This document shows, in pieces, positions 3,521 through 58,515 of a stretch of 64,000 nt of DNA. Numbering within the stretch: position 1 is the first letter of the stretch; each line of letters opens with the position of its first letter. The notes beneath the pieces are model-generated. The model saw only the letters and a program-made list of their open reading frames with translations. It did no database searches and was not told where the DNA came from. The stretch comes from Nepenthes gracilis (Eukaryota; Streptophyta; Magnoliopsida; Caryophyllales; Nepenthaceae), in contig BSYO01000034.1 of the NCBI GenBank assembly GCA_033239525.1, positions 4,526,001 to 4,590,000 on the forward strand. Direction: 5' to 3'. Position numbers and translations under genes: made by a program.

Positions 3521-3524
3521 ACCG

Positions 3525-4145: not shown

Positions 4146-4149
4146 CTCG

Positions 4150-14063: not shown

Positions 14064-14337
14064 ATTATAAGTATCTTAAAAATAGCATAGAGAGTATATT
14101 TTAAATATTTTGCAGCTATAAATAAAGTAAGTTGTCCCTATCGCATGCTTTTCGCCACTAGTAATGTTGTAGTCAACAATGAATAGAAAAAGTATCAAAT
14201 AGTTGAAATATAAATAACTATGTCGAGACAGACCTAAGCATGGACTGATTGAATCGAGAGCAAACAGTGAAGAAGTAGTTTGCAAAGCAACCTGAAAGTT
14301 GTCCGTGCTGATCCTGTGATTGCAGCAAGAAGGCAAG
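14064..14337 (+). promoter_or_regulatory. CNL-1 leader: remainder of 5'-UTR intron and splice acceptor
   Basis: Matches 30722-31001 and 55266-55547 almost base for base. An acceptor-like gattgcag precedes caagaaggcaag and the start codon at 14338. The donor and first exon that lie upstream in the CNL-2 locus are missing here, replaced by retroelement DNA. Confidence 0.65.
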
Positions 14338-26990: not shown

Positions 26991-26999
26991 TCACTTTTT

Positions 27000-29892: not shown

Positions 29893-30989
29893 GTAAGTAT
29901 AGATATGTTAATGGGTGTTATGTTATTATTGTTGGGCCGCGATCAATGGGCGGCCATTTGATACGGGAACAAAAATTAGTGAAATGGGCGGCCGACTAAT
30001 AAAAGCTCAAATTTGTGAAGTAGAAATAGAAGAAAAGAAACAAACACCAAATATTTTACGTGGAAAACACTTTTGAAATAAGAAAAAAATCATGGGATAT
30101 TGTTCTCTTTCTTTTCACTTTCTCTCATCTATTTTTCTCACTACTACACTACTTTATTGAGTGTGCATATACACACATATATATTTTTCTCACTACTACA
30201 CTACTTCATTGAGTGTGCATATACACACACATATATACACACATCCCCACCATAGCCCAGCTGGGTGGTTGGTGCTCAATTTTCAAGGTGTGCATGCGTG
30301 CATGCACACGCCCTGTCCAGTAGCAGGCGGCGCATGCCTGCTCCTGCAAATCGATCAGCGTTTGGAGTCCCAATAATGATGTCTACCAACTACCAAATCA
30401 GGTAGGTCTACTGCACACCTTTTTGGGTTATGATAGTCATTCAGACCTTCTATATTCAGTCGGTTAACCCTGTTGACCATCCTCTCATTATCGGCCGGTC
30501 AATTACCCCATTGACCGGTCGAAGTAGTCCGACCAGATTCTTCAGTGAAATTAGTCGTCTCATAACTTTTACCGGTCAACATATTGACCGGTAGAGGTTG
30601 ACCGTTCAGAAGGTTCCGGTCAACTATGTTGATCGGAATTCCTTCTACTTAAAGTAATACACACGTGCTCCGTTCAAGTCCTCCAATCACAAGAACTTTC
30701 ACACGGGAGTGATTCCCAACAATTATAAGTATATTAAAAATAGTTTAGAGAATATATTTTAAATATTTTGTAGCTATAAATAAAGTAAGTTGTCCCCATC
30801 GGTGGACAGCCATGCTTTTCGCCGCTAGTAATGCTATAGTCAACAATGAATATAAAAAGTATCAAATAATTGAAATATAAATGAGTATGTTGAGACAGAC
30901 CTAAGTATGGACTGATTGAATTGTGAGAAAAAAGTGAAGTAGTTTGCAAAGCAACCTGAAAATTGTCCGTGTTGTTCCTGTGATTGCAG
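29893..30989 (+). other. CNL-2 5'-UTR intron carrying a copia solo LTR
   Basis: Donor GTAAGTATAG at 29893 and acceptor TGATTGCAG ending 30989. Without the LTR the intron would be about 300 bp. The equivalent intron is uninterrupted at 55232-55536. Inferred from motifs and from conservation between loci. Confidence 0.5.
29925..30726 (-). mobile_element. Copia solo LTR with 5-bp target duplication ATTAT
   Basis: The LTR spans 29930-30721 (792 bp, TGTTGGG...CCCAACA) and is flanked by ATTAT at 29925-29929 and 30722-30726. The uninterrupted site is visible at about 55264-55275. It is the same family and same insertion site as the LTR at 13206-14063. A 52-bp tandem duplication (30131-30182 and 30183-30234) and a near-palindrome around 30289-30310 are internal. 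The orientation follows the PBS-bearing relative. Confidence 0.93.
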
Positions 30990-31001
30990 CAAGAAGGCAA
31001 G
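30722..31001 (+). promoter_or_regulatory. CNL-2 leader (end of 5'-UTR intron, acceptor, short UTR)
   Basis: Conserved with 14064-14337 and 55266-55547. The acceptor gattgcag ends at 30989 and the start codon ATG is at 31002. Confidence 0.6.
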
Positions 31002-33812
31002 ATGAGATTCGAGACTGCTGCTGTGTCTTTTCTTGTTCAAAAATTAGGTGATATGTTGATTGAAGAGGCAGAGTTCCTATTGGGTGTGGAAGATCAAGTT
31101 CAAAGCTTGCTGGAGAATATCAAATGGATGCAGAGCTATCTCAAGGACGTGGACGAGCAGGAAGGAGAGTGGAATGAAGTACTCTACATGCGGATTTCAG
31201 AAATCAGGAAGATTGCTTATGATGCTGAAGACTTGATTGATTCGGTCATCATCGAAGGTGCTGCAAGGAAAAGAGATAGGTTTGCTTGCTTCATCAACAA
31301 TCCTTTGTGTACACATGACGTAGGAATTGAGATTGAAGCTATTAAGAGGAGAATGGAAGAAAGTACGAAAATGCTGCAAACATTTCAAGTTGGAGGCCGG
31401 AGCGAACGAACTCAAGAAAGGCTGCCCCGAAGCTATCCCCATAGCAATGACGACTATGTTGTTGGCCTAGAAGGCAATGTCAAAATGTTAGCTGAGCAAA
31501 TGATCGGAGAAAAGAATTAAGCAAAGGTTTTGTGCATCGTAGGGATGGGTGGTTCTGACAAAACAACGCTAGCAAGGAAATTTTACAACCATGAAACCAT
31601 CAAACAACACTTTATCTGTCAGGCTTGGATTTCCATATCACAAGAATGGAATACTCAACACATCTTAGTTGAGATCCTGAGGCAAGCTACTGGCACCGAG
31701 CCAAACCCAGAAGAAATGGTGAGCATGGAAGAACTGGTGGACAAACTACAAGACTATCTAAAACATATGCGATATTTAATAGTACTTGATGATGTGTGGA
31801 AGAAAGATGCTTTGGAAAACATGCTCCCAGCATTCCCATTTGGAAATAAAGGAAGCAAGATTATAATCACCACCTGCATTCACGAAGTTGTTAAATTTTC
31901 GGATTTGCCTCGCTTTTTTCATGAGCCACGACGCCTTACGAAAGATGAATCTTGGGAGTTGTTTAGCAAGATAGCTTTGAATCACAGGGAATGCATTGAC
32001 GACTATCAATAGATTGGTGACTTTGAAAAGTTAGGTAAGGAGATGCTGAAAAAATGTGAAGGGTTACCCCTAGCTATAATTGCCATGGGAGGACTCTTAG
32101 GTGCAAAGGACACTACGGACGAATGGGAAAAAGTAAGCAAAGTTGTAAGTTCAAAGGTTGTGGGAGGAAGAGGCACGCATACGTATGGCACCGTGAATGA
32201 CATGTTAGCCTTAAGCTATCAAAACCTACCTTATGATTTGAAGCCTCGCTTTCTTTATGTGGCTCTCTTTCCTGAAGATTGCGAGATTCCAGTGGGTATG
32301 CTTACAAGAATGTGGATATCTGAAAGTTTTATAATGTCTCAAGAAGAGATGTTGGAAGAAGCAGCAAGACAATGTTTAGATGAATTGATCCAACGATGTG
32401 TGGTTCAAGTTGCAACAAGGAACTCTGCTGGCAAAGTGAAAACAATTTGAATCCACGACTTAATGCGTGATCTTTGTATTAAAAAGGCAAAGGAACAAAA
32501 TTTTCTAGAGGTTTTTCATGCATCTTCTGCCCCTTTGGAACTCGATGAGGATGCAACAAGATCACAATCACGCCGATGTATCATTCATTCTTATTCGAGG
32601 TATGATTTATGCATATTGTATACTAACACTTCAATTTTTAGCTATTCTGTTAAAGTTCAATTTAAACTTAGTGCATTATACTAACCAAAATTTTTAACTT
32701 GTGCAACATAAGTGTTCAAATTGGAACCCAAAATTCCCATCTTAGATTACTTTTCATATTTGGAGCAGCTGCTGTCAAAACCCACCGATATAGGGTAGAT
32801 GAAGAGAGAGCAACGTTAAGCTTGGAACAGGTGTATAAGAACTTCCAATTACTCGAGTCTTAAACATTTTGGTTCAAAAACTTGATGGGCGAAATAGGGA
32901 ACTTGATTCACTTGAGATACCTTGGAATAAGAAGCACGAATATCATAGAACTACCTGAATCTATTAAAAATTTACGCAACTTACCTTGGACAACAAGGTT
33001 ATTGGAGTTTTGAGTGGGCATGAGATAAGAGTGCCCAACGTTTTATGGAAATTGGAACGACTTCCCCATCTTTTTTTACCATGTAGTATGACTTCCACGA
33101 CGAGATTGAAGCTTTCCACCTTGAAGAGCCTGCAGACTTTGTGGGGGGTTTGGGGAGGGAATTGGATGTTGAATGAGATGTTAACACTAAGCCCAATTGT
33201 TAAAAAGCTGCGTATACTAGGTATATCAAACAAAAAACAACTAATGACAGTTTTTCAATGTCAGAGTGTCATTTTTGACACACTTTACTCTTTACAAATA
33301 AATTGGCCTTGCCGCGATAAGAATGTCGAGTTAACAGAATTTGGAATTGTTGTGTCACTACCATCATCAACATAAACCAGAATTATACGGATGAATAGGA
33401 TAGGAGTCTTCACCCATTCAGTTCCCATCTAAGCTTAAGAAGATAAGATTGGCTCATACCCACCTGACATTGCTAGAGACTACGAAAAATTTGGAAAGAC
33501 TTGCGAACTTAAAATATATTTCCTTATCAACGGACTTGTTCGTCAGGAAAGAATGGACTTGTAGGGCAGGTGAATTCCCACAACTTGAGTAGCTTATAAT
33601 TGAGCGCCTCCGCAATTTAGAGGAATGGTTGGTGGAGGGAGGGGCAATGCCACATCTCACCAAGTTAAGAATACAGTGCTGTAAAAAGTTGAAGAAGCTT
33701 CCAGAAGGATTGAAGTATATTGGCAGCCTTCGCGAATTGCACATAGATTGCATGCCTGAAGCATTCAACAGAAGGCATAAATAGGAAGAAACCAATGGAG
33801 AAATAACAAGCC
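31002..33812 (+). pseudogene. CNL-2: CC-NBS-LRR pseudogene, LRR cut by Tat-2
   Basis: The start at 31002 gives 'MRFETAAVSFLVQKLGDM', in line with CNL-1 and CNL-4. The CC domain runs to about residue 165 with 'YDAEDLIDS'. The NB-ARC shows GMGGSDKTT (about 31543; Gly to Asp in the P-loop), 'LIVLDDVW' (31781), 'GSKIIITTC', 'CEGLPLAIIAMGG', 'RFLYVALFPEDC' and 'IHDLMRDLC'. Damage: TAA at 31518, TAG at 32010, TGA at 32448, acceptor AG changed to AA at about 32706, deletions in the first LRRs (about 32860-32980), and TAA at 33373. LRR sequence continues to about 33812, where Tat-2 gag begins. Closest to CNL-1. Confidence 0.94.
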
Positions 33813-34370
33813 AAGGAGGCAAACGAGGTGAAGCGCCCTAAACGCGTAGACCGCCCCCCGGAAGCTCCCTGGCCGACCAATAGGAAGAAGAGGAGTGGCG
33901 ACAGTAACCGCTTCCCGGAGCGCCGCAAGCAGCCGCGCCCTTCGCCGGGATCTAGGAAGGATTATGGACAGACGTCCCTGACCTCTCTGAACGATACCTG
34001 TGCAAACATCCTGATGCAGATCTAGGATAAAAAGTTCTTCAAATGGCCGAAAGCTCTAAAGGGTCTGAGCGGCAGCGACCAAACAAAGTACTGCCAGTAT
34101 CACCGTTGCCTTGGAGATTCTATAGAGAACTGCAGGACGTTGCAGCAAAAAATAGAAGACCTGATCCACCGCAAACACCTTAAACGATTCGTGAAAGGTT
34201 CGGGGTAAGCTCCCACAACCTCGGAGGGTGAGGCCACCGAGCCTCCCCGGGGCCATACTACCGCTAGCGTGATCAACATGATCTCTATCGCAACCGCCAG
34301 GGGCACAAGCAGAAGGAATAGGAGCCAACTTCTAGCAACAAGAGAGTGAAGATAGGGGATAGGAGTGGTG
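33813..34370 (+). pseudogene. Tat-2 gag C-terminal remnant with zinc knuckle
   Basis: Begins within gag at 'EANEVKRPKRVDRPP', equivalent to about 1120 of Tat-1, and continues through 'RKKRSGD'. A zinc-knuckle-like 'KYCQYHRCLGDSIENC' lies at about 34088-34135, with Asp where His is expected. TAG at 34023 interrupts. The capsid domain is gone. Confidence 0.75.
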
Positions 34371-34850: not shown

Positions 34851-36240
34851 GCATCGGACTGCCCAGACGAAGATCTTGACCTCCACGACGAAGCCCTGCT
34901 ACGACAAGCCCAGTCAAGAGAAGCTACCGAAGCGATCCCTCTGAATCCTACCGAACCAAAAAAGTGCGTCCATGTGGCCAGCTCTCTTCTGCCTATCGAA
35001 CGCGATTGGTTAGTCACATTCTTGAAGACAAACTCCGACATGTTTGCCTGAGTTCCTGCGGACATACCCGGAATACTTGCCGAAGTGATCGTCCACAAGT
35101 TGGGCCTCGATTCCGGCCATAAGCCCGTTCGACAAAAGTGTAGGAACCATTCCGTCGAGAAGCTGATTGCCATAAGGGAAGAAGTGAAAAGACTCCTGGA
35201 CGCCGGGTTTATTCGAGAGATCCAATACTGAGAATGATTATCCAATGTCGTGCTGGTAAAAAAGAGCAACAGCAAGTGGTGAATGTGCGTAGACTTCACC
35301 GACGTAAATAAGGCTTGCCCGAAGGACAGCTTTCCTCTCCCCAGGATTGATCAGCTTGTGGACTCTACGTTTGGGCACGAGCTCCTGAGCTTCATGGATG
35401 CCTGCTTCGGTTACAAACAGATCCAGATTCACCCTGAGGACGAGGAGCATACCTCCTTCATGACCGACCAGGAAACATATCGCTATAAGGTCATGCCCTT
35501 CGACCTCAAGAATGCCAGGGCAACCTATCAACGCTTGGTGAACAAGATGTTCGAGACTCAGATCGGGAAGAACGTGGAAGTATACGTCGACGACATGCTC
35601 GTGAAAAGTAAGGTTACCGGCAACCACATCCGCGACCTAGAGGAGACCTTCCAGGATCCTCCAGGCGCACAGGATGAAGCTCAACCTCGCCAAATATGCG
35701 TTCGGATAACCTTAGGAAAGCTCCTAGGCTTCATCGTATCCCAGCCGCGGCATCGAAGCCACCCAAAGAAGATCAAGGCCATCCTCGACTTGAACCCTCT
35801 GCGGACGGTGAAGGAAGTGCAGAATTCACCGGGCGGCTGAAGGCCCTCTCGCGATTCCTCGCTAGGTCCGCAGAGAAGTACTTGCCCTTTTTCAAGGTAC
35901 TTAGTGGCACAAAATCATCAGGATTCTAGTGGACCGAGGAATGTGGTGAAGCGTTTAAAGAGCTAAAAACCTACCTTGCCAAGTCACCTCTCTTGAGCTC
36001 GTCGTGCGCTGGCGAGGACCTGTACCTCTACTTGGCTACGTCAGGAATAGCCCTCAGCTCCGTGTTGGTCAGAGAGCATGAGGGAGCACAGCGGCCAGTA
36101 TACTATATAAGCCGGGTACTGACAAATATAGAGGCCTACTATCCGCATGCCGAAAGAATCGCGTTGACGCTCATTTATTTGGCGGAGAAACTACGGCCCA
36201 CTTCCAAGCACACCAGATCATTGAACTAACGAATCAACCT
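34851..36240 (+). pseudogene. Tat-2 reverse transcriptase and RNase H pseudogene
   Basis: The RT shows 'VDFTDVNKACPKDSFPLP' (about 35289), 'LSFMDACFGYKQIQIHPED', 'VMPFDLKNARATYQRLVNKMF' and YVDD at 35583-35594. TGA stops at about 35049, 35229, 35235 and 35280 sit where Trp or Arg codons are expected. A frameshift follows about 35650, and the RT thumb resumes in another frame. RNase H (about 35940-36225) shows 'DLYLYLATSGIALSSVLV' and 'YYISRVLTNIEAYYPHAE'. Inactive. Confidence 0.9.
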
Positions 36241-36870
36241 CTTAAGTCAATCATGCAGAAACCAAAGACTTCCGGGCGGTTGATCAAATGGGCTGTGGAG
36301 CTAGGAGTGTTCGACGTGGAGTTCCGGCCTCAGCAGACCATCAAGGGTCAGGCCCTAGCGGACTTCATTGTCGAGGCAGCGACCCCCGCTTTGGATGTCC
36401 CTAGCAGCCTACGGAGCATGTAAGACCTTGACGTCCCAGTGTGGACCTTGAGCTTGGACGGATCATCCACCCAAGCAGATAGCGGAGTTGGAGTAGTGTT
36501 GAAGACTCAAGATGACGTGCAGATCACATACTCTGTCACGCTGACCTTCCCAGCTACCAATAATGTGGAAAAGTACAAGGCCCCTTCTCGCAGGACTTTT
36601 CCTGGCCAAGGAATGTTCCACAAAATCATTGGTCGTACATAGCGACTCCGAGCTCGTGGTCAACCAGATCCAAGGAAACTTCGAAGCATCAAACCCACAG
36701 CTCGTGAAGTACCTGGCGAAGGCAAAGACCCTGGTCCAGGGGTTTGACCGCTTCCTGATCAAACACGTCCCTAGGTCCGACAACTGGAAAGCTGATCGCT
36801 TGGCCAGGAACGCAGCTGCGGGATCCCCAGAGCAGTACGCCAGGGAACCGAGGGAGACTCTGGCTGCACT
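36241..36870 (+). pseudogene. Tat-2 second RNase H pseudogene
   Basis: 'WTLSLDGSSTQADSGVGVV' (36439) carries the first Asp. A one-base frameshift near 36580 follows 'FPATNNVEKYKAP', so the second acidic site is disturbed. 'VVHSDSELVVNQIQGNF' and 'NWKADRLARNAA' continue in the next frame. Equivalent to 3610-4143 in Tat-1. The preceding linker reads 'SGRLIKWAVELGVFDVEFRP'. Confidence 0.85.
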
Positions 36871-38139
36871 CAGCATCAACTTCTCGGACCAAGAAGTGCT
36901 GCGGGTCGATGAGGGGGACAACTGGATGACTCCGTATAGAAAGTACCTAACCGACGGAACCCTGTCCGACAACGCCGACGAGGCCAAATGGATCAAAAAG
37001 ACAGTAGGCTGGTACACACTCCTCAGTAGGAGGCTGTACAGGTGTGGATATTCTACTCCCTTCCTGAAATGTCTTACCCCTAAGGAAGCCGAGTACGCTC
37101 TAAGCAAAGTACACCTCGGTGTATGCGGCTTGCACATTGAGGGAAAGAACCTTGCGTTCAAAGTCATGCGACAAGGTCTCTATTAGCCAATCCTAAAGCA
37201 AGATGCCATGGAATTCATCAAAAAGTGTGAGAGCTGCCAAGTCCACGGTTCCGTGACGCATCTACCGCACACAGGGTTGCACAGCCTTCAATTCCCGTGG
37301 CCATTTGCGCAATGGGGGCTCGACATCCTCGGACCGTTACCTTTGGCCTCTGGATAAAGAAAGTCCCTAATTATCAGTATTGACTACTTCACCAAGTGGG
37401 TAGAAGCAGTCCCCCTAGCTCGAATCACTGAGCAGAATGCAATGGGATTCCTCCGTCAAAGCATCATCTGCCTCTTTGGGATTCCCAAGGCCGTGGTGAC
37501 CGACAACAGAACCCAAATCACCAGCAAACGTTTCACAAGGTACTGCACTGATCTGCGCATCAGGCTGGTCTACAAGTCCATGGCGTACCATCAAACTAAC
37601 AGACAGGTTGAAGTCACCAACTGCACGTTGTTACACTGGATGAAGACCAAGATGGAAGATACAGGGGGCTCATGAGTCGAGAAGCTACCTTCCGTACTCT
37701 GGTCATATCGGATGACCCCACGGGAACCAATGAGAGAGACATCCTTCAGCCTCTGTTACGGGACTGTGGCTGTAGTTCTCGTTGAAGTGGGATTACCCTC
37801 CCTACGGGTCAAATGTTTCGATCTAACCACCAACTCACAGAGACTTCGGGAAAGCCTTGACCTATTTCCAAAAGTTTGGGACACAACCCGCCTGCAGACC
37901 GCGGCCTATCAACAGCGAGTCATGTGGTACTACAACAAGAGTTTAAAACTCGCCCACTTGAGTTTGGGGATCTGGTCCTCCGGAGCGTAGAGGCGGCGAA
38001 AAAAGTCGCAAACAGGAACAAACTCTCCCCTGAGTGGGAAAGCTCATTCCTCGTCTCCACAATCCTCGGGAGCGGAGCGTACAAGTTATGCGCCCAGAAT
38101 GATAAACTGGTCCCCCGACCCGGAATGCCACCAACCTAA
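36871..38139 (+). pseudogene. Tat-2 integrase pseudogene
   Basis: The zinc-binding region includes 'KKCESCQVHG' (about 37220). The core keeps Asp in 'GLDILGPLP', Asp in 'VTDNRTQI' and Glu in 'RQVEVTN'. Both flanking Gly-to-Arg changes fit G-to-A transitions. 'SLCYGTVAVVLVEVGLPSLR' and 'MWYYNKSLK' follow. After a frameshift near 37950 the C-terminus reads 'NKLSPEWESSFLVSTILG'. TAG at 37184 and TAA at 37354 interrupt. Confidence 0.9.
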
Positions 38140-44864: not shown

Positions 44865-46138
44865 GTATAAATGCATGTTTTTGGGGATTGAGTGCTTGAA
44901 TGCACACGGTTGAGAAACGACTTGGAGATGGAGAACTGAGTTTCGATGAGAGCACTCAACCAGGAAGTAGCTTATAGGGATGGAGGACTAAGCTCTACTA
45001 AATGCACTCAGCCAGGGAGCGGCTTTCGGATATGAAGGATTGGGTTTCAGACAATACGCTCGGTTGGGAGCGACTTGTTGCAGGATGTGCTCTTGGGAGA
45101 GCGGCAATCTAGAGGAGCAATGAATTCTTGGGCAACGATAATAGAGAGAGGAAACACCCATTGAACTCCTTTTCGACTACCAACAAGGGGGCTCCCTATG
45201 CCTTGCTGCACGAATCATCCTCACCGTGCTAGCAGTGTGAGAGTTTTGAGCAGTCGTGGTGCCTACATAGTCGTGAGCCTGGATCGAAGGGTTATTTCGA
45301 ATGTTAGGGGTGCTCCTGCTCTACTGGGGTAATCCTTCGAGCTAAATGAAGAAATGCGAGTATGAGCATGCTCTGTCGATTTCTTTCCTTTTTGCTCTGT
45401 TTTCTCCTCTCTGTTGGTTCTACTTTCACGAATCCTCCCCTTATCCATGTGGAGTGAAGGGCATATGTATAGAGTGAGAGCCAATTTTGTTGCCTTGGGG
45501 CTCACAACTCCGCCCTCCATGGAAGGCCGACAGTGATGCTTAATTATCGGAGGTTTGTGCAATCGACGGTATCTTTCCTGCGACAATTGCTGAACTTTTC
45601 CTGTGGTTACTTGCTGATTGGGGGCATGTGGCGTTGATTGTCAGTTGATGAGCTAGAGGAGTGCTTTGCACGGTAATTGGCTACGATTGCTGTAACAAAC
45701 TGATGGTAACCGTCTACTGATATTGCTTTTATGATCGCTAGAAAACCACACGCTAGCAAGGGCACATGGGCATGTCTATTGAGTTAGAGTCACCAAGTTG
45801 TACTCATAGGCCCGCTTGGTTCCCATCTCCATCAGCTCATTGTGCGCTAGGCTATCCAGAGCCATACCGTCAAGGCCTTGGGTTTTGTGAAATTTTGCTC
45901 GGCTTTTACTTCATGGCATGTCTTCTACCAAGCCAAATTCTTGGGCCGACTCGTAAAATTATCGGACCTATCACATTCAATATTTCATTTTTTTGCCATT
46001 CAAGTCCGCTGCATCTAATTTGTAAGGAATTTTGTTTTCATATTCACTTTTCATTCCCATGGGTGATTATCAATGACGTTCTTGAGGTTAAGTAAATCTA
46101 TTTTAATTCTATTGTTTAGTAATTTACAGTGACTTTTT
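44865..46138 (+). repeat. Block E copy 3 plus start of block F
   Basis: Matches 24628-25680 and then the first about 160 bp of F. F homology is cut at 46138, inside 'gtgactttttga', by the chimeric element, and resumes at about 50177 (equivalent of 25936), with about 75 bp of F missing. No gene in this block. Confidence 0.8.
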
Positions 46139-46535
46139 GATGCGTGCACCGTTGATGAAGGTCACGCCGGAAGAACAGCGGGGATGAAAACCAGTGGAGT
46201 GAACCGGGAAGGGGAGTCCGGCAGAGGAGGACTCAGGGGAAAAGGGGAATTGTCGAGGGAGAGAGAGAGAGAAAGGGAAAAGGGAAAAGGAAGAGGGAGG
46301 TGCAGAGTGACAGAGTCAGGGAGGAAAAAGAGAGAGAGAGTGGAAAACGGGAAAATATTCTCTACTCATTATACTGCTGTCAGCACATTATATAGGGAAA
46401 TTGGGTAATGGGGAGAACGGGAAACCCTCCACGGGGCCGTAACAACTTAAACAAACAGTAAGCATATGACAGTAAATGGGAACAGAGAACAGAGAACGGG
46501 GAAAAAGAAACGGGATGCTATTAGGCCCGTAATAC
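46139..46535 (-). repeat. 3' LTR-like end of the chimeric element
   Basis: On the minus strand it follows a G-rich tract (gatggatggggtag) and includes TATATAATGTGC near 46385-46397, a CT-rich leader, and an end reading CGGTGCACGCA. The plus strand starts tgcgtgcaccg. The matching 5' LTR was not found within the insert. Confidence 0.5.
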
Positions 46536-46569
46536 TACCCCATCCATCAAAAGAACCTTGTCCTCAAGG

Positions 46570-47256
46570 TTAGACGCGAAGATAAAATTCTAAAGCATCA
46601 TGATCCAACGCAACTCCATATTTCCCGGGGTCCCATTGTCGTCTGCATTTGTCGTAGCTCCATTCGTTACCCGGCATCTCCACTAGTACGACGCTAAAAC
46701 TGTACACGTCGTTCTTCACATATAATTGCCCTGTGAAGACATACTCTGGAGCGGCATAGCCTTCTGTGCCCATCACCCTCGTCGAGACATAAGACTGACT
46801 AGCAGAGGGGCCAAGTTTTTGCTGAACTGAAGATTGAGATTTTGGCATGGTTGCTGAACTGAAGATTGAGATTTTGGCATGGGAGGTCCCACTCAGGAGG
46901 GTGTTAGAGGTCTTGATGTATTGATCGGTGACTCGGCCATCTGGTGTGTGTAAAAAAACAAAGTCTCGGGCACCTCCAATTAAATCCCATGATAGTGGCT
47001 GAACAGCAGAGCCCTTGCCAAACAGGTGGTTTTCCAAACTTTCCTGCTGCATAATTTCATAAACAAGCAGCAGCTCCTTTTCTTCCCAGCAATAACCCAA
47101 CGGCCTCACAAGATTAGGGTGCGAAAGCCTTTCCAGGAAAGTTACCACCGACTGCCACTCTTCAAAACCTCGTAGACTCTCTTGATTCACATTCTTGATG
47201 GCAACAACCACTCCAGTACCACTCCTAGCAGGCTGTTGCTTCTTCTCCATGACCAA
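46570..47256 (-). pseudogene. Captured receptor-like cytoplasmic kinase (RLCK VII-type) pseudogene fragment
   Basis: Reads '[15 protein letters not shown]', '[19 protein letters not shown]', '[18 protein letters not shown]', '[15 protein letters not shown]' and '[12 protein letters not shown]', the order of an RLCK VII kinase. The ATP-binding Lys (VAIK) is present. The catalytic loop has lost its Asp (DQYIKTSN) and no DFG is recognisable. A 32-bp tandem duplication at 46819-46882 and a deletion after 'LSWD' add damage. No introns are seen, although related plant genes usually have several, so a cDNA source is likely. It ends in a stop at about 46570. Not a functional kinase. Confidence 0.85.
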
Positions 47257-47269
47257 CTCGAACCCCCCT

Positions 47270-48410
47270 GCTCATGATAATCCTGCATCTGGCAAAGTTC
47301 CAATAAAATGACCACACCTTTGATTCCTGTTCTTGCCTCTTTGGGATCACCCAACATATTAACAACAGAAGCATCAATAGGAACAGAAGCATCAATATGG
47401 TCCTGGTTTTCAACCCTGGAAGCGCTAGTAACTAATAATACAAGAGCATCCTGATCCACGTTCTTTGGATATACCTCAATCAAGCTTTTGTTAACAGTAA
47501 GCTTGTTAGGAGTGAGAGCCCCGGTCTTGTTACCGCAAAGGACCTCCATACCAGCCATTTTTTTGATGGCTGTCATCCTCTTGGTGATCGCCCCTTGTTC
47601 AGTTAGGCAGTGAAACTCAACAGTCATTGTCACAGACAAAGCTGTTGGCATAGCAATTGGAAGTCCTCCAACGAGAAGCACTAGCAAGTTGTCAATGCCC
47701 TCTTGGTATGCCCTGTGCTGGGTGGGATACATCCCAATAATCCCTACCAGCATTCTCTCAATAATTGAGTAAATACAGGAGTTACCGATGGCAGTCAATA
47801 CCTTTTGGAGCCAAATAAGTGGCCATAATGACCAAATGCTATCAACCAAGTGAGCAGCCTTGCCATATAAGGTGAAGATACCAGTGGCCATAACAACAGC
47901 CTCAATTTTACCTTGCTTGCAATTGGGACCAGCGAAAGTCTCATCACCGGGGTTCTCTGTGAATGGGAGGGAAACTCCAGTAATGGTAGCCTGGTCGATC
48001 TTGAGGGGATCACCCTCCAACAATCGAGCATTGGCTGGAACAATATCTCCTAGCTTGATATTGATTAGATCCTTGGGTACAAGGATTGCTGCTTCTTTCC
48101 CGCTCCACTTTCTGTCTCGCAACACCTTAGTTGTGGAAACAAGATTTGCCAAGAGTGCTGCTACAGCATTTCCTGCATTGTTTTCCTCAATACAGCCAAT
48201 GACGTCTGGATAGTCTGATGGCTTGCCTCCTTCATTTGCTAAAGCAATAGTCATGATAGTTGTAGCCTTCATGACCCAAGACAGAGGACTCCACAAAACC
48301 CCAAAAACTTCAGAAATTTTCCATCCTATTTATCTTCACGTTTGTTCTGGCCAAAAATTTCGAGCCTCACACACTTGAGTTGCTTGGAAACTTCCTCCAC
48401 GGAAGTAGTT
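47270..48410 (-). pseudogene. Captured plasma-membrane H+-ATPase (P3A-type) pseudogene fragment
   Basis: The segment starts with 'TSVEEVSKQLKC' and 'LEIFGQNKRED' (48406-48329), the cytosolic N-terminus. After a TAG and a 1-bp shift it continues '[20 protein letters not shown]', '[16 protein letters not shown]', '[18 protein letters not shown]', '[12 protein letters not shown]', '[15 protein letters not shown]' and '[19 protein letters not shown]'. The phosphorylation site is NKTGALT: the catalytic Asp is Asn. A membrane segment is deleted after 'YPDVIG'. The fragment stops early in the P/N domain at about 47280 and abuts the kinase. Native genes of this family are intron-rich, so intronless codons point to reverse transcription. 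Confidence 0.92.
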
Positions 48411-49560
48411 TCCTGGGACATAAGGCAAGCTGTAACACACAGGTAGTAGAGGCGATACCAATATCTATTGCCCCTCGTGGCCTCCTGAGCCTTCCAGTTG
48501 TAATTAGACTGCCGAATTAATGAAAAAGATCTGGGGGAAACTTCACAAATGACCCAACCGATTTTGTCCCTCAGTGGAGGGATGGATTCCCTTTTTAGCA
48601 GTGCGAGCCCCTCATCAGCTGGGGAAAACTGGTGCCACAATGCCGTTAAACAAATTCCCACTTTCAGAAAATCAAGCAAAACCAACTTGGAATCATCAGT
48701 TGCAACATCACGAACATCAAGTTGGTTGAGGAACGCCACATGAAATTTTAGAACACTAAGGAACTGAGGTGGACCGGTTTGCTTCCACCTAAGGGTTGGC
48801 CTAGTTGGAAATGGTAGAGGTAAGGAGAGCTCCAAGTTTTCCAAATTTACGAGTGCCCATCTCTGGGTTTGGACCGTGTTTGGTGAGCATCTCCCTGTGG
48901 GGTTTTCATTTCTCGATTGGGGCTTTTGTGCCTTAGTGGGACTATCAGTGGTGCGGTCGTCCTGTGGAAGTACGGATGCCACGAAGGAAGCAATATCTGG
49001 GGGAGGTAAGGAAAGCTGAAGAGTGATTGTGGTGCCTGGTGGTGCGGGTGGTGTGCTGGGTAGAGCTTGGGTTAGAGTTGGCGGTTGTGGGAGTGGTGGA
49101 GTTTGAGGAGACAGTTGTGGACTTACCTTCGAAGGCGTGGTGAACAATTTAGTGGCAGGAATCCTGAGAGACTTCTGTCGGTTTGGTTGAAGATGATTGA
49201 ATACGTATGCCTCAACAACGGAATCATGGGTTGTCGGTGCCGAACCGGTCGTTTCGTTTGGTAATACGGTCTTCCAAACCCCAATCTCGTTCCTAGTCAG
49301 CATCTTAGCCTTAGGATCCCCATCGTTGAAGCCTCCAACTGATGCTGCTAGCTTTGCTCCAGGAGCCCATCCCATGCAAGTAAGCTCTGAGTCTCTGCGG
49401 TTGAGATCCAGCTGAACTTTTCGTAAAACCTCATCCGAAGTTTCTGATCGACTGGGAGAGAGTGAAGAACAATCGCTTTCTCTCGCTGGGACCCCTATCG
49501 TAGCAGAAGTAGCTACTGTTGCCGATCGAGAGTCAGGCATAGATGGAATCTTCTGAGCAA
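48411..49560 (-). pseudogene. Unrecognised Pro-rich region in the chimeric element
   Basis: One open frame spans from gag into the H+-ATPase start (49747-48326), so this middle part is open on the minus strand for about 380 residues. It is Ser/Pro-rich ('LSPQTPPLPQPPTLTQALP') with a hydrophobic segment around 'LVLLDFLKVGICLTALWH'. I recognise no domain. It could be gag tail, further captured host sequence, or both. The open length may be chance or recent fusion. Confidence 0.4.
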
Positions 49561-50100
49561 CGATCTGCCCTGAAGATTGAATCGAGAGGGGCGCGACATC
49601 CGCAAAGTAAGCAGAAGCTATTGAAGTCTGGTGTAGATGGGACAGATCGGCTTTGTGAGTCAAGGACGAGGGCGTCCCAAATTTTTGCTCAAGATCCCTG
49701 GAGAAAAATTCCCAGGTAGAGATTTGCCGTGTTGCGCGCATCCACATATACCACAGAGCATCGCGAGGACAAGTAGATGGCGGCGATGGCTAATTTGTTC
49801 GGTGGAGTTTGATGTTTCAGAGAAAAATTGCTCGATATGCGAGAGCAGGTGATAATGTTACGGCCGGAGAAATACGGAATTTACGTGAGAGGCGAACGAA
49901 GGTGAGAGAACGGGGTTGTAATCGAAGAGGAGACTGGAAGAGGTGGAAAATGTTCAGGAGGCGAGGGATGCTGCGTGTTGTTGTTCGATTCAGGCCAAAG
50001 TTTGTCGGATTTCAGTGAGGGTTTGTCGGATTTGTTCATGAATCGAAGCGGGAGCAGTGATGGCCGCTGTGTGTGGTTGGCCATTCACGACGTCCTCCTT
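49561..50100 (-). pseudogene. Chromovirus-type gag pseudogene (5' part of the chimera)
   Basis: In different frames on the minus strand: 'HEQIRQTLTEIRQTLA' near 50040 (coiled-coil start of gag), 'HIEQFFSETSNSTEQ' near 49840, and 'STWEFFSRDLEQKFGTPSS' with 'KADLSHLHQTS' at 49720-49620. These three pieces occur in the order found in chromovirus capsid domains. At least two frameshifts and a TGA divide them. Confidence 0.75.
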
Positions 50101-50176
50101 CCCCCGACTCGAAAGCCCTACGATGCGATCTTCCAGAGGAGTGCAGTGCCCGGGTAATTCCTCTGCCATCTCTCAA

Positions 50177-51355
50177 TTTATTATTGATAATAGCCATATC
50201 TCTTGCAATACCCATGATATTAAATAAACTTTGGAAGATGTTAAAAATTTTAAAAATTCTATCATTGGGTAGAAATTTTATAGAAAAAAATACTACTTTT
50301 GGATGATGTTAAAAATTTTAAAAATTCTATAACAAATTTTATGAGAAAAAAATATTATTCTTTATTTTAATATGATTTTTTGTTTAAATGTCATCTCACA
50401 AATTATGTTTTTTATTAGAATACCTTAAATTATTAGGGTTGAATTTAAAATTAATATTAGAGTATTTCTTTGAATGATGATTAATTTATCATTTTTAAAA
50501 TATTCTTTTTTATTTTTATTAAATATATATATTTTTTTTTTACTGTGGATTATTTTAACATTGTATTTTATAACACGATTAATTTATCTAAAATATTATT
50601 ATTATATTATATATTATATTTTTATTATATTTTTTATACCTAATATATTAAATATTAAAAAAATAAATATTAAATTAATAAATTTAGTATTACAAATTTT
50701 ATAAACTGTCAAATCAAGACAACTTTCCAACATTCAAATTAGATACATGCTTTGGTTTTTCTAGATAAAAATAAAATCAAATACGATAAAATCTATCAAT
50801 TTAATTTTGCTTAGAAAAATCCTGTTAAAAATTATTATTCAAAAAGGCTTTTAAGTTTATGTGAATAAACAAAGGCATTGAAGTGTAATTTTTAAATTCA
50901 TAAAATTTCTTTAGAATATGTGATTAAAGTTAATTACATATAACATAAAAATACAAATTAAAAATATTTAATGTAGATTGTAATATGTGACTTCATATTA
51001 AAATTATAAAAGACATATGTGAATTTTACTTTGTTTTAATTTTTTATCTCTCCATACTAATTTTAATAATTTTATTAAAAATAAATATATAAGGAAATAT
51101 ATAAATATTATTTTTTAATATAAATTGGTGAGATTTAATTTTATATAATTTTATTTTAAAATGGACGTAAAATATGGCTCATCGTGGACCGTATTCTCCA
51201 CGCTGTGACTTCAGAAGTCGTCGTCGTCGTCTTTTTCTAGACACGATGTAACTTCGCTGCCATAAATATCTCACCCACCCACCTGCCCCATTTGCAGAAC
51301 AGAGAGAGAGAGAAAGAGCACGCGCTTGTGCTTTTCTTTTGAGGCTTCAAGTAAG
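50177..51355 (+). repeat. Block F copy a (CNL-4 locus), distal promoter copy
   Basis: Homologous to 25936-26990. Contains a 67-bp local duplication (50229-50362, 'gatgttaaaaattttaaaaa' twice). Promoter-like end: CATAAATATCTCACC at 51261, 'cccatttgcagaacaga', a (GA)n run and a caagtaagtt-type donor at about 51349. The left end was replaced by the chimeric element. Confidence 0.75.
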
Positions 51356-53040
51356 TTCCCTTTTTCTTCGTAAAATTTCTTCTCTCTTCTTTTAGTTTTT
51401 TCTTTCTTCCTTTTTATTAAAATAATATTTTAAAATGTTTAATATAAATTAATTTTATATCTCTATAAAATATATAAATTTATAATTATTAAAAAAATTT
51501 TAATAAATGTAAAACACATTTATTTATGTTTCATAAAGAAAAAAAAATATAAACAAAATAAGTAGGGACATTTAATGATATTTATTTAATTTTTTTTTGT
51601 AAGTATTTTTTATAATAATTATAACTCATAATTTCCTCAGCCAGGGATTTTTATTTATTTCCTTATTTTCTATTAAAATATAGCACATAATATACACATA
51701 TTTATACACTAAAAAATATTAATAACACATTATTTAATCACTTTTAAAATATTTTTATTATATAATTTCTTATCTATCAATTTAGTCGTATATTAAATTT
51801 GTGAGTATTAATTATCTCGTAGTATGTATCTAACTTTTGATGACAAAACATATGCGGCCATTTGTTTACAACGATAGAATAAGATATGAGAAAATCTAAT
51901 TGATATATTATTGCTGTTAATACCTATTGAATTTAAAATTTAATAAAATCTGTGAGTTATATTTAGTATAATCTATGTGTTAGATTCAATGAGATTCTTA
52001 ATCTATGGGTCGTGATGTTTATTATCATTTGGTATTCGTATCATTTATACTGATATTCCAACCAGCTAATCTCTATCTTCCTAATAATGTTAGATTCTAG
52101 GGAGATCCTTACCTGTTATTGACAAATTTCAAATTCTACAGAATCCTTTTATTTTACGGTACGAAGGTTTGGTAGGGCTTACTCTTATTATTCCTTTTGA
52201 ATTGTAATTAGAATGAATTGTACATTTTCGAATAGAGTTTATTATTAGATTCTATATTATTTCAGTGGCTTTAGTATATTTGATATTGTATATTCGATAT
52301 ATTTATTTGTTTATTACACATTTTTAATTATCATTATTTATTTGACATTTGACTAATTCTTATATTTTATTGGCTCTAAATTCAATTTGATTATATAACG
52401 CTAGCAGGGGACTCTGCATTTACTGTGGGACTTTTAGTTACACGGGATTTGGGAGGTTAGTTGTTATCGTATTATTTAGTGACAATCAAATTATATTTTG
52501 ATGAAGATTTGTTGGTGCTTTGCAAGTTATGACTTATGAATCTTAGTGGTTTTTATTTCTTAAATATTTATTTCATGTAGTGATGAGACAACAACTTTAT
52601 AGTTGAAAAAGGTTAAAATTATTATAATTATTTAATAATTTTATATATTAAAACTTTTAATATGAATGGTTCGAATCGAGTCTGATAATTAGGATTTGAG
52701 TAATCACGAAGATAAATTAGAGAGGCTGCAACGTAAGAGGGCGTCGCAACCCCGCTGGCGCCCTCGGGGGCTGTTGGATTGAATATTTAACGGCCTCTGG
52801 TTTTCTGAAAGAAAAAAATAAAATAAATAAAAAATAAATGAGAAACATTTTTTTTTACTTTTCTTAAAAAATAATAAAAATAAAAATATATATATAAATA
52901 ATATTTTTTTTCAAAATCGGACGGCCCCTGAGGGTGCCAGAGGAGCTACAACGCCCTCCCACGTTGCACCCCTATCATTCTTGTTGTATTTGGAGTTTAA
53001 TAAGATGGCAGGTGTGACGACAGGATTCTTCTTTCCTCGT
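51356..53040 (+). repeat. Block G copy 3
   Basis: Homologous to 27000-28660 and 9829-11240. AT-rich, non-coding, and ends with the third fold-back. Confidence 0.8.
52727..52968. repeat. Fold-back element, copy 3
   Basis: The left arm from tgcaacgtaagagggcgtcg pairs with the right arm ending caacgccctcccacgttgca. This copy has the most regular arm pairing of the three. Confidence 0.78.
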
Positions 53041-55230
53041 ATATTTCATTTTTTGCCATCCAAGTCCTCTGCATCTAATTTAAAAGGGCGGAGTGTCCTG
53101 CTAATTTTGTTTTCATAGTCACTCTTTATATCTGTAGGCATCTACCAGTGACGTTTTTTGAGGTTAAGTAAATCTATTTTTTATTCTATTGTAAGACTTT
53201 TTTATAAGTTTTTTAACTATAGAAATTTATATCTTATCATTTGTTAAAAATATTGTCACTTAAATTATTAGATATTGTTATTTATTATTGACAATAGCAG
53301 TATCTCAAGCAAAACCCATGATATTAAATAAATTTTGGATGATATTAAAAATTTTATCATGTAAATTTTCTAGAAAAAAATGTTATATTTTTATTGTAAT
53401 ATTATTTTTTGCTTAAATAACATCTCACATATTATTTTTTTATTAGAATACTGTGGATTAAATTTAAAATTAATATTATAGAATTTTTTGATTGATGATT
53501 AATTTACCACTTAAAATGTTCTTTTTTGTTTCTTTTATATATAATTTTAATACATTTTTAATATTATTTTAGAACATGTTTAACATATTATTATTATTAT
53601 TATTTCTTATTATATTTTTATACATAATATATTAAATTTAAAAAGTAAATTTTAAATTAATAAATTTTGTATTACCAATTATATAAACCGTCAAATTAAA
53701 CCAACTGGCTAACATTCAATTTAAATAATTTGTCTCTATTAATAGATTTGTTTGTTCATATAAAAATTCAAATCACAGTCAGCGATTTGGTTGCGAATTA
53801 TTTAATAATTCTTACCAAACCCATCCATATTTACTATTAAGCAATTAATCAAAATCATTATGTCATGCTGTTTAATAACTATATATTTTTGTTGGGTCCC
53901 AATATAAGGGCCCATAAAACACGGCCTAAAAAGAGAGCCCAAAAAAGCTCAGAGATACATCCACGGGCCAAGAGGAGAGACTGGCCCAAGAGGCCCAAAA
54001 GCCCAATTTAGTCCCTTAAGCTGGACTGGGCTAACAAGCCGGAAAACGCAGGCTAGTGTCTCAAAAGCCGAAGCTACGACAAAGGTCCAAGAGGTTCCAG
54101 GAGCTCGAGGACACCGCTAATAGCAGACGCCATTCAGGTACGAGGACTAGAAGAAGAAGCCTGAGAACCTCAGAAGTTTCATCGGGCCTTAGATTAGTCC
54201 AAGAAGTCAAGGAAAGACCCGAGGACCCTCCACGAAGGACCAAAGATCCTCCAAGTCCTTCCAAAAGGCAGTTGACGTCAGAGAGCTACTTCCCTCGAAC
54301 GGGTCCGCGATCCCTAAGAGACGAGGACTATCCCATGCACGGCCGAGAGCGCCAACTAAGCAACTTCGTCGATTTCCAAGGAACCTGTAACCACTACGAG
54401 ACGCCGCCTCCACAGAGCACGCCTAATTAAATCAAGACTGACGCCTAAAGTCTACAGGCCTGACATGTTCAGGCCGTACCAGCGGCGCCAGCAGCGTGCT
54501 TCCCTGTGCATGCCATCATTCCTGACATGGGCGGCAAGCCAGGTGGACGGTTCCCTCACGCACTCGGCATGATCAACGGGACAGGTGAACAGCCTCTCGA
54601 CCACACGTCAGCTGCCACGTGTCATCTCTCTAGCGGTGCAATTTCTCCTACAAATACCCAGCAGAGGCTCTTGCCTCAGGACCCCTTTCTTCCCTCCTCT
54701 TTTCCCAGAAGAACGAAGAAGAAGGAGGAAGAATTAAGGAACTTCCAAACGAGAAAGCCCTGAAAAGAGGAGAGATTAAGGAAAGAAAAAGGAAAGATAT
54801 TCCCAAATCTTGTACCTTATAAAGACTTCCACCCATAGTGAAGTATTTCTAAAGGCCTAAAGTCTTGTAATTTTTCTTCCTCATTTAAGAGGAAACTTTC
54901 CACGTAAAAATCGGTTTTAATCTCTCCTTCTCCACATCTTACAATCTCGAACACTTGTGTTGCACGTGACCCTGCGATCCGAAACGCAACAATTTTAATA
55001 GTTAATAAATAATTTTACTTTGTCTTAGTTTTTTTTTCATCTATCTATACTAATTTTAATAAAAATAGATAAAAATTATTTTTTAATATAAATAAGGGAG
55101 ACACTAGTTTATATAATTTTATTTCAAAACGGAAACAAAGCTCATCCCGAATGCATTCTCCACGCGATGATTTCGGAAGTCGTCTTCCTTAGCACCCAGA
55201 TTTCGATGCCATTTCCCCGAAATTTCACTT
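53041..55230 (+). promoter_or_regulatory. Block F copy b of CNL-4, split by a solo LTR and lacking the TATA/first exon
   Basis: Two parts, 53041-53889 and 54992-55230, match 28661-29758. The following about 131 bp of the CNL-2 locus (29759-29889), holding the TATA box and first exon, are missing. 'aatttcactt' joins directly to 'tatgtaagtc'. So the proximal CNL promoter is deleted here. Confidence 0.75.
53885..54996 (+). mobile_element. Tat solo LTR with 5-bp target duplication ATTTT
   Basis: The LTR spans 53890-54991 (1102 bp), TGTTGGGTCCC...GCAACA, flanked by ATTTT at 53885-53889 and 54992-54996. The pre-insertion site is preserved at about 29506-29525 ('ctatatattttaatagttaa'). Same family as the 5' LTR at 11396-12394. 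Minus- and plus-strand open frames inside it are not genes. Confidence 0.95.
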
Positions 55231-55547
55231 TATGTAAGTCTAGATATGTTAATGGATGTCATGTTATTATAAATATCTTAAACATAGCTTAGAGAGTATA
55301 TTTTAAATATTTTATAGCTATAAATAAAGTAAGTTGTCCCAATCAGTAGACAGCCATGCATTTCGCCACTAGCAATGTTGTAGTCAACAATGAATAGAAA
55401 AAGTATCAAATAGTTGAAATATAAATGAATATATAAAGACAGATCTAAGTATGGACTGATTGAATTGTGAGAAAAAAGTGAAGAAGTAGTTTGCAAAGCA
55501 ACCTGAAAATTGTTCGTGTTGTTTTTGTGATTGTAGCAAGAAGAAAG
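55231..55547 (+). promoter_or_regulatory. CNL-4 leader: 5'-UTR intron without LTR insertion
   Basis: TATGTAAGTC retains a donor sequence. The intron body aligns with 30722-30989, and the acceptor TTGTAG ends at 55536. The start codon ATG is at 55548. The uninterrupted 'gttattataaatatc' at about 55264 is the empty site for the copia insertions at CNL-1 and CNL-2. Confidence 0.6.
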
Positions 55548-58515
55548 ATGAGTTTCGAGTCTGCTGTTGTCTCATTTGATATTCAAAAATTAGGCGATAT
55601 GTTGATAGAAGAGGCAAAGTTCTCATCGGGTGTAGAAGATCAAGTTCAAAGCTTGAAGAGGGAATTCGAATGGATGCAGAGCTATCACAAGGACGTAGAC
55701 GAGCAGGAAGAAGAGGGAAATGAAAGACTCCGCAGGCGAATTTTAGAAATCAGGAAGATTGCATATGATGCTGAAGACGTGATTGATTCGCTCATCATCG
55801 AAGGTGCTGCAACGAAAAGAGAGACCCTCCTAAAGAGGTATGCTTGCTTCTTCAATTGTCTTGTGCGTATACATAAAGCAAGCACTGAGATTGAAGCTAT
55901 TAAGATGAGGGTACAAGAAAGTACGGAAATGCCCAAAAATATCAGGCTGGAGGCCAGAGTGGACGAATTCAAAAAAGGCTGCGTCGAAGCTATCCCCATA
56001 GTAACGATGACTATTTTGTTGACCTAGAAGGTGATATCAAAATGTTAGTTGAGAAAATAATCGGAGAAAAGAATCAAGCAAAGGTTTTGTGCATTGTAGG
56101 GATGGGTGGTTCTGGCAAAACAACGCTAGCGAGGAAGCTTTACAATCATGAAACCGTCAAACAGCACTTTCACTGTCAAGCATGGGTTTCTGTATCACAA
56201 GAATGGAATACTCAACACATCTTAGTTGAGATCCTGAGGCAAGCTGCTGGGACAACACAAAAAACATATGAAATGGTGAGTATCGAAGGATTGGTGAACA
56301 AACTACGAGACTATCTTAAAGATAAGTTATATTTAATAGTACCTGACAATGTATGGAAGAAAGATGCTTTGGAAGACATGCTCCCTGCATTCCCATTTGG
56401 AAATAAAGGAAGCAAGATTATAATCACCACCCGCATTCACGAAGTTGTTGAATTTCCAGATTTGCATCCCTTTTTCCATGAGCCACGGTGCCTTACGGAA
56501 GATGAATCTTGGGAGTTGTTTAGCAAGATAGCTTTGAATCATAGGGAATGCATTGACGACTATCAACAGATTGGTGACTTTAAAAAGTTGGGTAAGGAGA
56601 TGTTGAAAAAATGCGAAGGGTTAGCCTTAGCTACAATTGCTTTGGGTGGACTCTTAGGTGCAAAGGACACTACGGAGGAATGGGAAAAAGTAAGCAAAGT
56701 TGTAAGTTCAAAGGTTATGGGAGGAAGAGGCACACATATGTATGGCACCGTGAAGGACATGTTAGCCTTGAGCTATCAAGACCTACCCTATGATTTGAAG
56801 CCTTTCTTTCTTTATGTGACACTCTTTCCCGAAGATTGCGAGATTCGAGTGAGTACGCTCAGAAGAACGTGGATATCTGAAGGTTTTATAATGTCTCAAG
56901 AAAAGACGTTGCAAGAAGCAGCAAGAGAATGTTTAGATGAATTGATCCAACGATGTGTGGTTCAAGATGCAACAAGGAACTATATAGGCAAAGTGAAAAC
57001 GATTCGAATCCACGACTTAATGCGTGATCTTTGTATTAAAAAGGCAAAGGAACAAAATTTTCTAGAGGTTTTTCATAGATCTGCTGCCCCTTTGGAACTA
57101 GATGAGGATACAACACGATCACAATCACGCCGATGTATCATTCATTCTTATTCGAGGTATGGTTTATGCATATTGTATGCTAACATTTCAATTTTTAGCT
57201 ATTCTGTTAAAATTCAATTTAAACTTGGTGCATCATGCTGACGAAAAATTTTAACTTGTGCAGCATAAGTGTTCAAATTGGAACACAAAATTCCCATCTT
57301 AGATCACTTTTCATATTTGGAGTAGCTAAGGTCACATTCTACTGTTATGAACTGAGAGCAACGATAAGCTTGGAACAGGTGTATAAGAACTTCCGATTAC
57401 CCAGAGTCTTGAACATTTCTAGTTCAAAAACTTTTGATGGCACATTACCGGCCGAAATAGGGAACTTGATTCACTTGAGATACCTTGAAATAAGAGGCAT
57501 GAATATCATAGACCTACCTGAGTCTATTGAAAATTTACGCAATTTACTTACCTTAGACTATAAGAGTGTTGTATATTTTGGTAGGTATGAAGTAAGAGTG
57601 CCCAACGTTTTATGGAAATTGGAACAACTTGGCCATCTTTTTTTACCATATGATATGACTTGCACGACGGGATTGAAGCTTTCCACCTTGGAGAGCTTGC
57701 AGGCTTTGTGCGTGGTTTGGGGAAGGAATTGGATGTTGAATGAGATGTTAACATTAAGCCCAAGTGTTAAAAGGCTGCGTATATAAGGTATATCAAGTAA
57801 GGAACAACTAATGGCAGTTTTTCAATGTTAGAGTGTCACTTTAGATCAGTTTTACTCTTTACACATAAATTGGATTAACTGCGATGAGAATGTTAAGCTC
57901 CAAAATTTAGAATTGTTGTGTCACTGCAATCATCTACGTAAACTGAAATTATACGGACGAATAGGAGAGGAGTCTTCACCCATTTAATTCCCATCTAAGC
58001 TTAAGAAGATAAGATTAGTTTATACTTACCTGACATTGTCAGAGATTATGAAAAATTTGAGAAGACTCGCGAACTTAAAATATAGTTCCTTATCAATGGA
58101 GTCGTACGTCGGCATAGAATGGACTTGTAGGGCAGGTGAATTCCCACAACTTGAGCAGCTTATAATTGAGCATCTTCGAAATTTAGAGGAATGGTGGGCG
58201 GAGAGAGGGGCAATGCCACATCTCACCTCGTTAAGAATACAGCAGTGTAAAAAGTTGAAGAAGCTTCCAGAAGGATTGAAGTTTATTGGCAGCCTTCGTA
58301 GATTGCACATAGCATACATGTCTGAAGCATTCTACAGAAGGCTGAATCAGGAAGAAAACAATGGAGAAATAATAGGCCAAGGAGGGGAAGATCTCCACAT
58401 TATTCTGTTGAACGCAGCCGTTCAAGCTGCTACAGTGCAGCTTCTTCAATGGCAACGGTTCATTGCTCCATCAACTGTTGGCTGCTGGAATTCCTTTCTA
58501 CGTTTCTGCAATTGA
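55548..58515 (+). pseudogene. CNL-4: near-full-length CC-NBS-LRR pseudogene (RPP13-like)
   Basis: Length without the intron is about 950 codons, normal for a CNL. CC: 'MSFESAVVSFDIQKLGDM' and the EDVID motif 'YDAEDVIDS'. A 1-bp loss near 55938 shifts the frame before NB-ARC. NB-ARC: GMGGSGKTT (56099-56125, intact), 'LIVPDNVW' (about 56332; kinase-2 altered from the hhhhDD form), 'GSKIIITTR', 'CEGLALATIALGG', 'FFLYVTLFPEDC', 'RIHDLMRDLC'. Exon 2 has about 12 LRRs, such as 'LIHLRYLEIRGMNIIDLPES', and ends 'GCWNSFLRFCN'. Stops: TAA at 57784, TAG at 57828 and TAA at about 57985. Least damaged copy, but still a pseudogene by sequence. The start was chosen because it aligns with CNL-1 and CNL-2. 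Confidence 0.93.
57157..57263 (+). other. CNL-4 intron between NB-ARC and LRR
   Basis: Donor GTATGGTTT at 57157 and acceptor CTTGTGCAG ending at 57263, 107 bp. Splicing joins 'IIHSYS' to 'ISVQIGTQNSHLRSLFIF' in frame (phase 2). Confidence 0.75.

Follow-up and report, generated by a model that had tools for sequence, protein, structure and literature searches.

How fragments of several unrelated host genes came to lie in a string within one retroelement is the question raised by a locus of Nepenthes gracilis, located on the minus strand at positions 46138-50172 of a 64,000-nucleotide stretch (hereafter the window; positions 4,526,001 to 4,590,000 of contig BSYO01000034.1, GenBank assembly GCA_033239525.1). 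An earlier note on this DNA had described gag, plasma-membrane H+-ATPase (AHA) and RLCK-type kinase sequence with a terminal-repeat-like end, and had suggested that host cDNAs were transduced into a retroelement. According to our sequence comparisons, the element carries fragments of no fewer than five plant genes, one or more of which were taken up after splicing, and it recurs in related copies. We consider it likely (with a probability of roughly 85%) that the window copy is a decayed member of a non-autonomous, cargo-bearing family of long terminal repeat (LTR) retrotransposons that was assembled by template switching. The family keeps LTRs and a leader, the front part of a gag of Ty3/gypsy type and a putative pol-end stub, with fragments of several host mRNAs in place of pol. 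Host mRNAs may have entered virus-like particles along with element RNA, and the reverse transcriptase may have moved from the element template to a host template and then returned; the same switching could have traded cargo blocks between subfamilies, and the enzymes would be supplied by an autonomous relative.

Modules of the window copy

Along the minus strand, the modules follow in the order gag, a class II branching enzyme (SBE-II), a stretch X, 8-oxoguanine glycosylase (OGG1), a lead of unassigned origin, AHA, an RLCK-VII kinase, a branching enzyme of the SBE-I type, the pol end and the 3' LTR, and all of them share one sense. The AHA fragment (47316-48412) is intronless and covers AHA residues ~18-390; the AHA-like open reading frame (ORF) at 47187-48329 matches AHA2 (PDB 5KSD, E 2.5e-124). 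The kinase fragment (46681-47249, its left limit being set where matching to the second subfamily described below ends) belongs to an ORF at 46570-47271 that matches BIK1 (E 3.1e-46) and PBL2 (E 1.9e-42), and between it and AHA lies a junction stretch (47250-47315, LELCQ..HEQG..LELV) that recurs in copy L022 and in the N. gracilis proteins P0001 and P0051. A 32-bp tandem duplication is located at ~46819-46882 in the kinase part, roughly at the DFG region. The gag module comprises an N-terminal part from its ATG (49990-50171, recognized by translation and colinear with the gag frame of sister copy L018) and a capsid part with frame changes in the window copy (49613-49857). PF03732 did not reach the cut-off in the window (E 0.0022) and passed it in L018 (E 7.8e-6), and PF19259 stayed short of it in L018 (0.01); the profile results support a gag of Ty3/gypsy type (Retrotrans_gag/Ty3 capsid), a wider class than the chromovirus named in the earlier note.

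The earlier placement of gag, H+-ATPase and RLCK on this strand is borne out by the AHA2, BIK1/PBL2 and PF03732 matches. An H+-ATPase and a second host gene, as the earlier note had it, are thus both present, but the content was understated, since further gene fragments had been overlooked. These are SBE-II (49127-49402), matched by protein P0040 (E 3.7e-12) and weakly by other branching enzymes; the N-terminal domain of OGG1 (48596-48895), matched by N. gracilis OGG1 (P0009, E 3.8e-31) and weakly in Pfam (0.021); and SBE-I (46573-46680), represented by two colinear pieces from its C-terminal half and matched by rice SBE-I (3AMK/3VU2, E 8.7e-7). A common origin of both branching-enzyme pieces from one gene was considered but does not hold, since the 5' piece resembles class II more closely (P0040, versus E 0.07 for rice SBE-I) and the 3' piece corresponds to rice SBE-I. 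No identity was assigned to stretch X (48946-49126), which is common to copies of all three subfamilies, and the lead (48413-48595), common to P0034/L022 and diverged in L033, gave no match in a Pfam search. Ahead of the LTR stand a stub NLEDKVLLMDGVVLR and a purine tract GATGGATGGGG (46535-46572), recognized by translation and by the same pre-LTR position in sister copies; its place before the 3' LTR makes the stub a putative end of pol. Otherwise no pol is left in the copies that were read. The 3' LTR (46138-46534, ~397 bp) starts with TATTACGGG in the window versus TGTTACGGG in sister copies and ends in GCATCA; L009-L017 and L025-L027 carry this LTR at each of their two ends.

Subfamilies with different cargo

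When the DNA of the genome itself (a 752.5-Mb assembly of 133 contigs) was searched, at least 67 matches were obtained (40 scored of 489 candidates), and 20 places were retrieved for the description of the family, whose multicopy nature had also been overlooked. Subfamily sub1 comprises the window copy and L009-L017 and has the module order of the window, with L017 being without most of AHA and RLCK and L016 being worn. Subfamily sub2 (L025-L028) has the gag-SBE-II-X and RLCK-SBE-I-LTR parts of sub1 and a different middle; in L027, the one copy of sub2 tested in this respect, this middle reads neutral invertase (PF12899 barely over the cut-off), SBE-I, a TLDc/OXR5-like piece, SBE-I, RLCK and SBE-I. 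Subfamily sub3 (L018-L023) is like sub1 up to AHA (L023 from the OGG1 part onward only) and has a different 3' part, and the sub1 LTR did not match the sub3 LTR. L024 matched only up to the start of AHA, and the direct-repeat check revealed no LTR-like repeat in either L024 or L028.

The LTR-like end proposed earlier is confirmed by 12 sister copies of sub1/sub2 that have two LTRs with TG..CA ends, and sub3 copies also have two LTRs as judged from direct repeats. Kimura two-parameter divergence within the 12 LTR pairs is 0.013-0.070, corresponding to ages of 0.5-2.7 million years if one assumes a rate of 1.3e-8 per site and year, which was not measured in Nepenthes. Perfect 5-bp target duplications were detected in 10 of these 12 copies by a scan that accepted any pair of end motifs (L014 also yielded one spurious pair); L013 has no 5-bp duplication and L025 agrees in 4/5 bases. 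In sub3, a 5-bp duplication was seen by eye in L018, L019, L020 and L022, and in L023 only after the LTR end was shifted by one base. Hence most two-LTR copies bear one 5-bp duplication around the whole unit, the full module order recurs in sister elements, the AHA-RLCK junction recurs in P0001 and P0051 and five gene kinds are joined, which is at odds with the possibilities, raised by the earlier note itself, that the parts came from separate later insertions with their own target duplications or from one unspliced genomic locus.

In a protein search with the SBE-II module, in which candidates were limited to a set length range, 13 of the 34 candidates matched, all from N. gracilis. The sequence of P0034 is encoded by L022, located on C36. 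P0001, which is without OGG1, was considered as another chimera and set aside as a possible gene-model splice, given that GTAAGT follows its SBE-II piece; therefore, subfamilies were defined on DNA. Considering that related elements contain different stitched sets of genes, one lineage seems to pick up and swap host genes repeatedly.

Spliced origin of the AHA fragment

The host AHA genes of N. gracilis are multi-exon, as are, according to the available parts of the respective reports, citrus AHA-like genes (13-21 exons; PMC4353184), wheat SbeIIa (22 exons; PMC3228712) and 96% of cotton RLCK-VII genes (4-7 exons; PMC10494381). Alignment of the window with the host AHA gene L036 yields seven blocks of 79.5-87.5% identity (68-72% for the paralogue L037). 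Five introns of L036 are absent from the window: four measure 334, 84, 100 and 101 bp, and the remaining one spans ~115 bp within an unaligned stretch of 140 bp. At these sites, the window has 0-5 unaligned bases; only the fourth site has 33 such bases, the end of the exon having itself diverged. The loss of five introns at exon junctions therefore means that spliced RNA was captured, in agreement with the earlier notion of an AHA segment free of introns and in support of the cDNA transduction suggested there. A 12-residue deletion in AHA lies within an exon and is therefore not due to splicing. The captured OGG1 part falls within a single host exon, so that intron loss is not readable there. 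Between captured AHA and L036, dS is 0.50-0.59 (four copies), far above the median of 0.086 between copies, implying that the capture predates the present copies or that L036 is not the direct parent.

Helitron or Pack-type elements frequently hold multiple gene fragments, and a capture at the DNA level with later placement inside an LTR element might in principle have produced such a string. Considering that the AHA introns are absent and that the sister units end in LTRs with 5-bp target duplications, this explanation was discarded as extremely improbable.

Capture history and probable exchange between subfamilies

In a phylogenetic analysis with 40 of 109 plant AHAs, the six AHA rows of the family cluster together with support of 100/100. 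The phosphorylated Asp of DKTGT is replaced by Asn in all 6 family rows that cover it and the Glu of TGES by Val in 7/7 (P0002 included), both residues being conserved in 109/109 plant AHAs. A 3-residue gain is present in 7/7 family rows and 0/109 plant AHAs, and the 12-residue loss in 6/7 family rows (P0002 being unalignable there) and also in 1/109 plant AHAs. This common group with its shared catalytic losses and indels therefore points to a single capture of AHA behind all family rows, and with such residues lost the AHA part would not be a working pump.

Evidence on the mode of capture comes from L027, in which SBE-I is broken by the TLDc/OXR5 fragment and taken up again at the same residue, and is broken once more by RLCK between rice residues 331 and 541. 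Read-through transduction, in which transcription from an LTR promoter runs into a neighbouring gene, the spliced transcript is retrotransposed and repeated rounds add further genes, would also strip introns and keep one sense, as seen for all window modules. However, the resumption of SBE-I at the same residue after TLDc/OXR5 and its continuation past RLCK fit switching out and back better, and the cargo is flanked by gag and the pol end instead of lying outside an LTR; we thus regard read-through as unlikely.

With regard to exchange, sub1 forms one group in both the OGG1-AHA tree and the RLCK-SBE-I tree, while in the gag-SBE-II-X tree well-supported branches unite L012, L013 and L015 with copies of sub2 and a single copy of sub3. 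Recombination between subfamilies is the best explanation for these conflicting segment trees.

Selection and open reading frames

Ratios of nonsynonymous to synonymous change (dN/dS) were calculated between copies other than L016, L021 and L023; we excluded copies that cover <60% of a module as well as pairs whose synonymous change was saturated or too small. The C part of gag gave 0.32 (18 copies), SBE-II 1.01 (17 copies), X 1.20 (18 copies), OGG1 0.57 (14 copies), AHA 0.83 (12 copies), RLCK 0.62 (12 copies) and SBE-I 0.19 (13 copies; 36 codons only). Gag is constrained. Among the cargo, SBE-II and AHA are close to neutrality, whereas OGG1 and RLCK take intermediate values that indicate at most moderate constraint.

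These values bear on whether the fused frame might be a selected chimeric gene that encodes a functional protein, with the element as its vehicle or origin. Long frames exist in the window (487 codons), L022 (868) and L027 (966); that of the window, its longest minus-strand ORF, runs from the last part of gag through SBE-II, X and OGG1 into the start of AHA. Its length exceeds chance expectation, as none of 500 dinucleotide shuffles yielded more than 256 codons (median 128). The ratios of OGG1 and RLCK also agree with such a gene, whereas those of SBE-II, X and AHA and the loss of AHA catalytic residues do not, nor do in-frame stops in 4 of 17 SBE-II and 4 of 14 OGG1 copies (stop counts for RLCK and SBE-I are unreliable, as stops were called in L027 despite the 966-codon frame through RLCK). 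When neutral decay was simulated to 0.025 changes per site, 10% of runs remained without a stop (0.25% at the long amino-acid branch of 14.8% change), and the DNA branch of the window itself is only 0.011-0.020; therefore, its open frames need no selection. Open frames were thus abandoned as a sign of selection, having lost force at this short DNA branch with dN/dS mostly not low, and a selected chimera appears improbable. Under the template-switching account, the cargo would mostly be a passenger. A more far-reaching proposal, which we consider speculative and rather doubtful, is that the lineage is a specialised cDNA-shuffling engine, in which the retained Gag would package host mRNAs, reverse transcriptase would string fragments of many genes together, subfamilies would trade cargo and some frames (up to 966 codons) would be expressed as new proteins.

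Several points weigh against the template-switching account itself. Switching is seen only through its expected products. The evidence of intron loss covers AHA alone, and L036 may not be the direct AHA parent. Ectopic DNA recombination between copies could also yield the conflicting trees. Finally, the window copy has only a 3' LTR and no target duplication.

Insertion site

The insert at 46138-50172 represents a single insertion, whose edges were obtained by joining both host flanks and comparing them with a paralogous empty site in the window. The block 24764-29514 is a repeat of 45053-46138 plus 50173-53889 without the insert (81-93% identity, in three pieces), and the stretch corresponding to 25856-25929, ~74 bp of target, was replaced by the insert. 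The edges given earlier (46139-50176) lie within ~4 bases of those set in this way. The left edge is the LTR 3' end of sister copies (GCATCA), and the right edge adjoins the gag ATG, where sister copies have the 5' LTR and the leader TTGGTGCTTTCATTGAG. The window copy is therefore 5'-truncated at 50172/50173, with 5' LTR, leader and ~74 bp of target gone, a feature that had escaped the earlier note.

As for the surroundings, AT-rich direct repeats of 0.7 kb (25677-26397 with 28657-29352, and also 53037-53727) lie ~3 kb apart with ~82% identity and resemble the LTR ends of another element; the studied insert is located within one of those repeats. Tandem copies of a CC-NBS-LRR-type resistance gene, 87-92% identical, are found at 13520-16149, 30179-33819 and 55266-58385, and the insert sits between duplicated blocks of this cluster. 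The related stretches 2389-5068 and 35082-37766 (71-73%) contain retroelement-like frames, including a reverse-transcriptase-like frame recognized by eye at 35283-35837.

Other cargo in related elements

With OGG1 protein as the query, 77 matches were obtained in the genome, 4 of which fall on exons of the host OGG1 gene, located on C24. The remaining 73, family copies included, are fragments within residues 27-234, and many of them are probably further cargo elements; some lie inside open frames of 450-870 codons. Three further places of those listed were read. L031 has an LTR pair with a WD40 protein and OGG1. L032 has an LTR pair with OGG1 and pieces of PARG and ABC1K, with an H+-PPase match short of the cut-off. 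L033 (G000:C36:3045500-3052000) has a 616-codon frame with OGG1, the lead, most of the N-terminal half of the auxin response factor ARF5 (E 1e-105) and a tubulin-like piece short of the cut-off; no LTR pair was found within the fetched stretch, and it is a candidate element. Pieces of K+ transporter, H+-PPase and TPR sequence also occur in gene models P0005, P0006 and P0008, which may have spliced them in from neighbours. These findings call for caution in annotation, as several N. gracilis protein records that are named after P-type ATPase, K+ transporter or kinase domains are at least partly element sequence.

Comparison with known systems

Plant LTR elements with captured host genes have been described both individually, as for maize Bs1, and in surveys. 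No report of the present family was found in the open-licence literature of PubMed Central; in the available part of the N. mirabilis genome paper, which gives 35.5% for Gypsy elements, the term 'gene capture' occurs 0 times and no such family is described. In this one lineage, several sets of cargo are available together with common junctions, young copies, an empty site and a host gene for testing intron loss. From this combination, the order of captures, the switch points and the exchange between elements can be read directly, and one may ask whether gag-only elements package host mRNA.

Published systems are compared here on the basis of the accessible portions of each source. Bs1 is an LTR retroelement with three transduced host genes, one of them a plasma-membrane H+-ATPase (PMC13317346, PMC7264820), in accordance with its earlier citation as a precedent. 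As in Bs1, parts of host genes lie between LTRs in the Nepenthes element, where the parental AHA introns have been lost; unlike Bs1, it has at least five gene kinds (SBE-II, OGG1, AHA, RLCK and SBE-I) and relatives with other cargo. Compared by description, the listed Bs1 cargo differs except for the H+-ATPase (PMC13317346). Retroduplication of NLR genes in pepper likewise placed spliced mRNA in LTR elements, often without gag or pol (PMC5664825), but chiefly concerns one captured family, whereas unrelated gene fragments stand in a string in Nepenthes. Host genes inside LTR elements number 672 in rice and 1,343 in sorghum in an annotation-based survey, whose accessible text describes no serial reassortment (PMC3726574), in contrast to the reassortment in Nepenthes. 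Veju and BARE-2 of the Triticeae are recombinant LTR elements ascribed to abnormal template switching (PMC13317346); they gained unknown or other-element sequence, whereas the Nepenthes elements gained host cDNAs in series. What we claim as new is the number, diversity and reassortment of cargo within one lineage, which appears to be unusually prolific.

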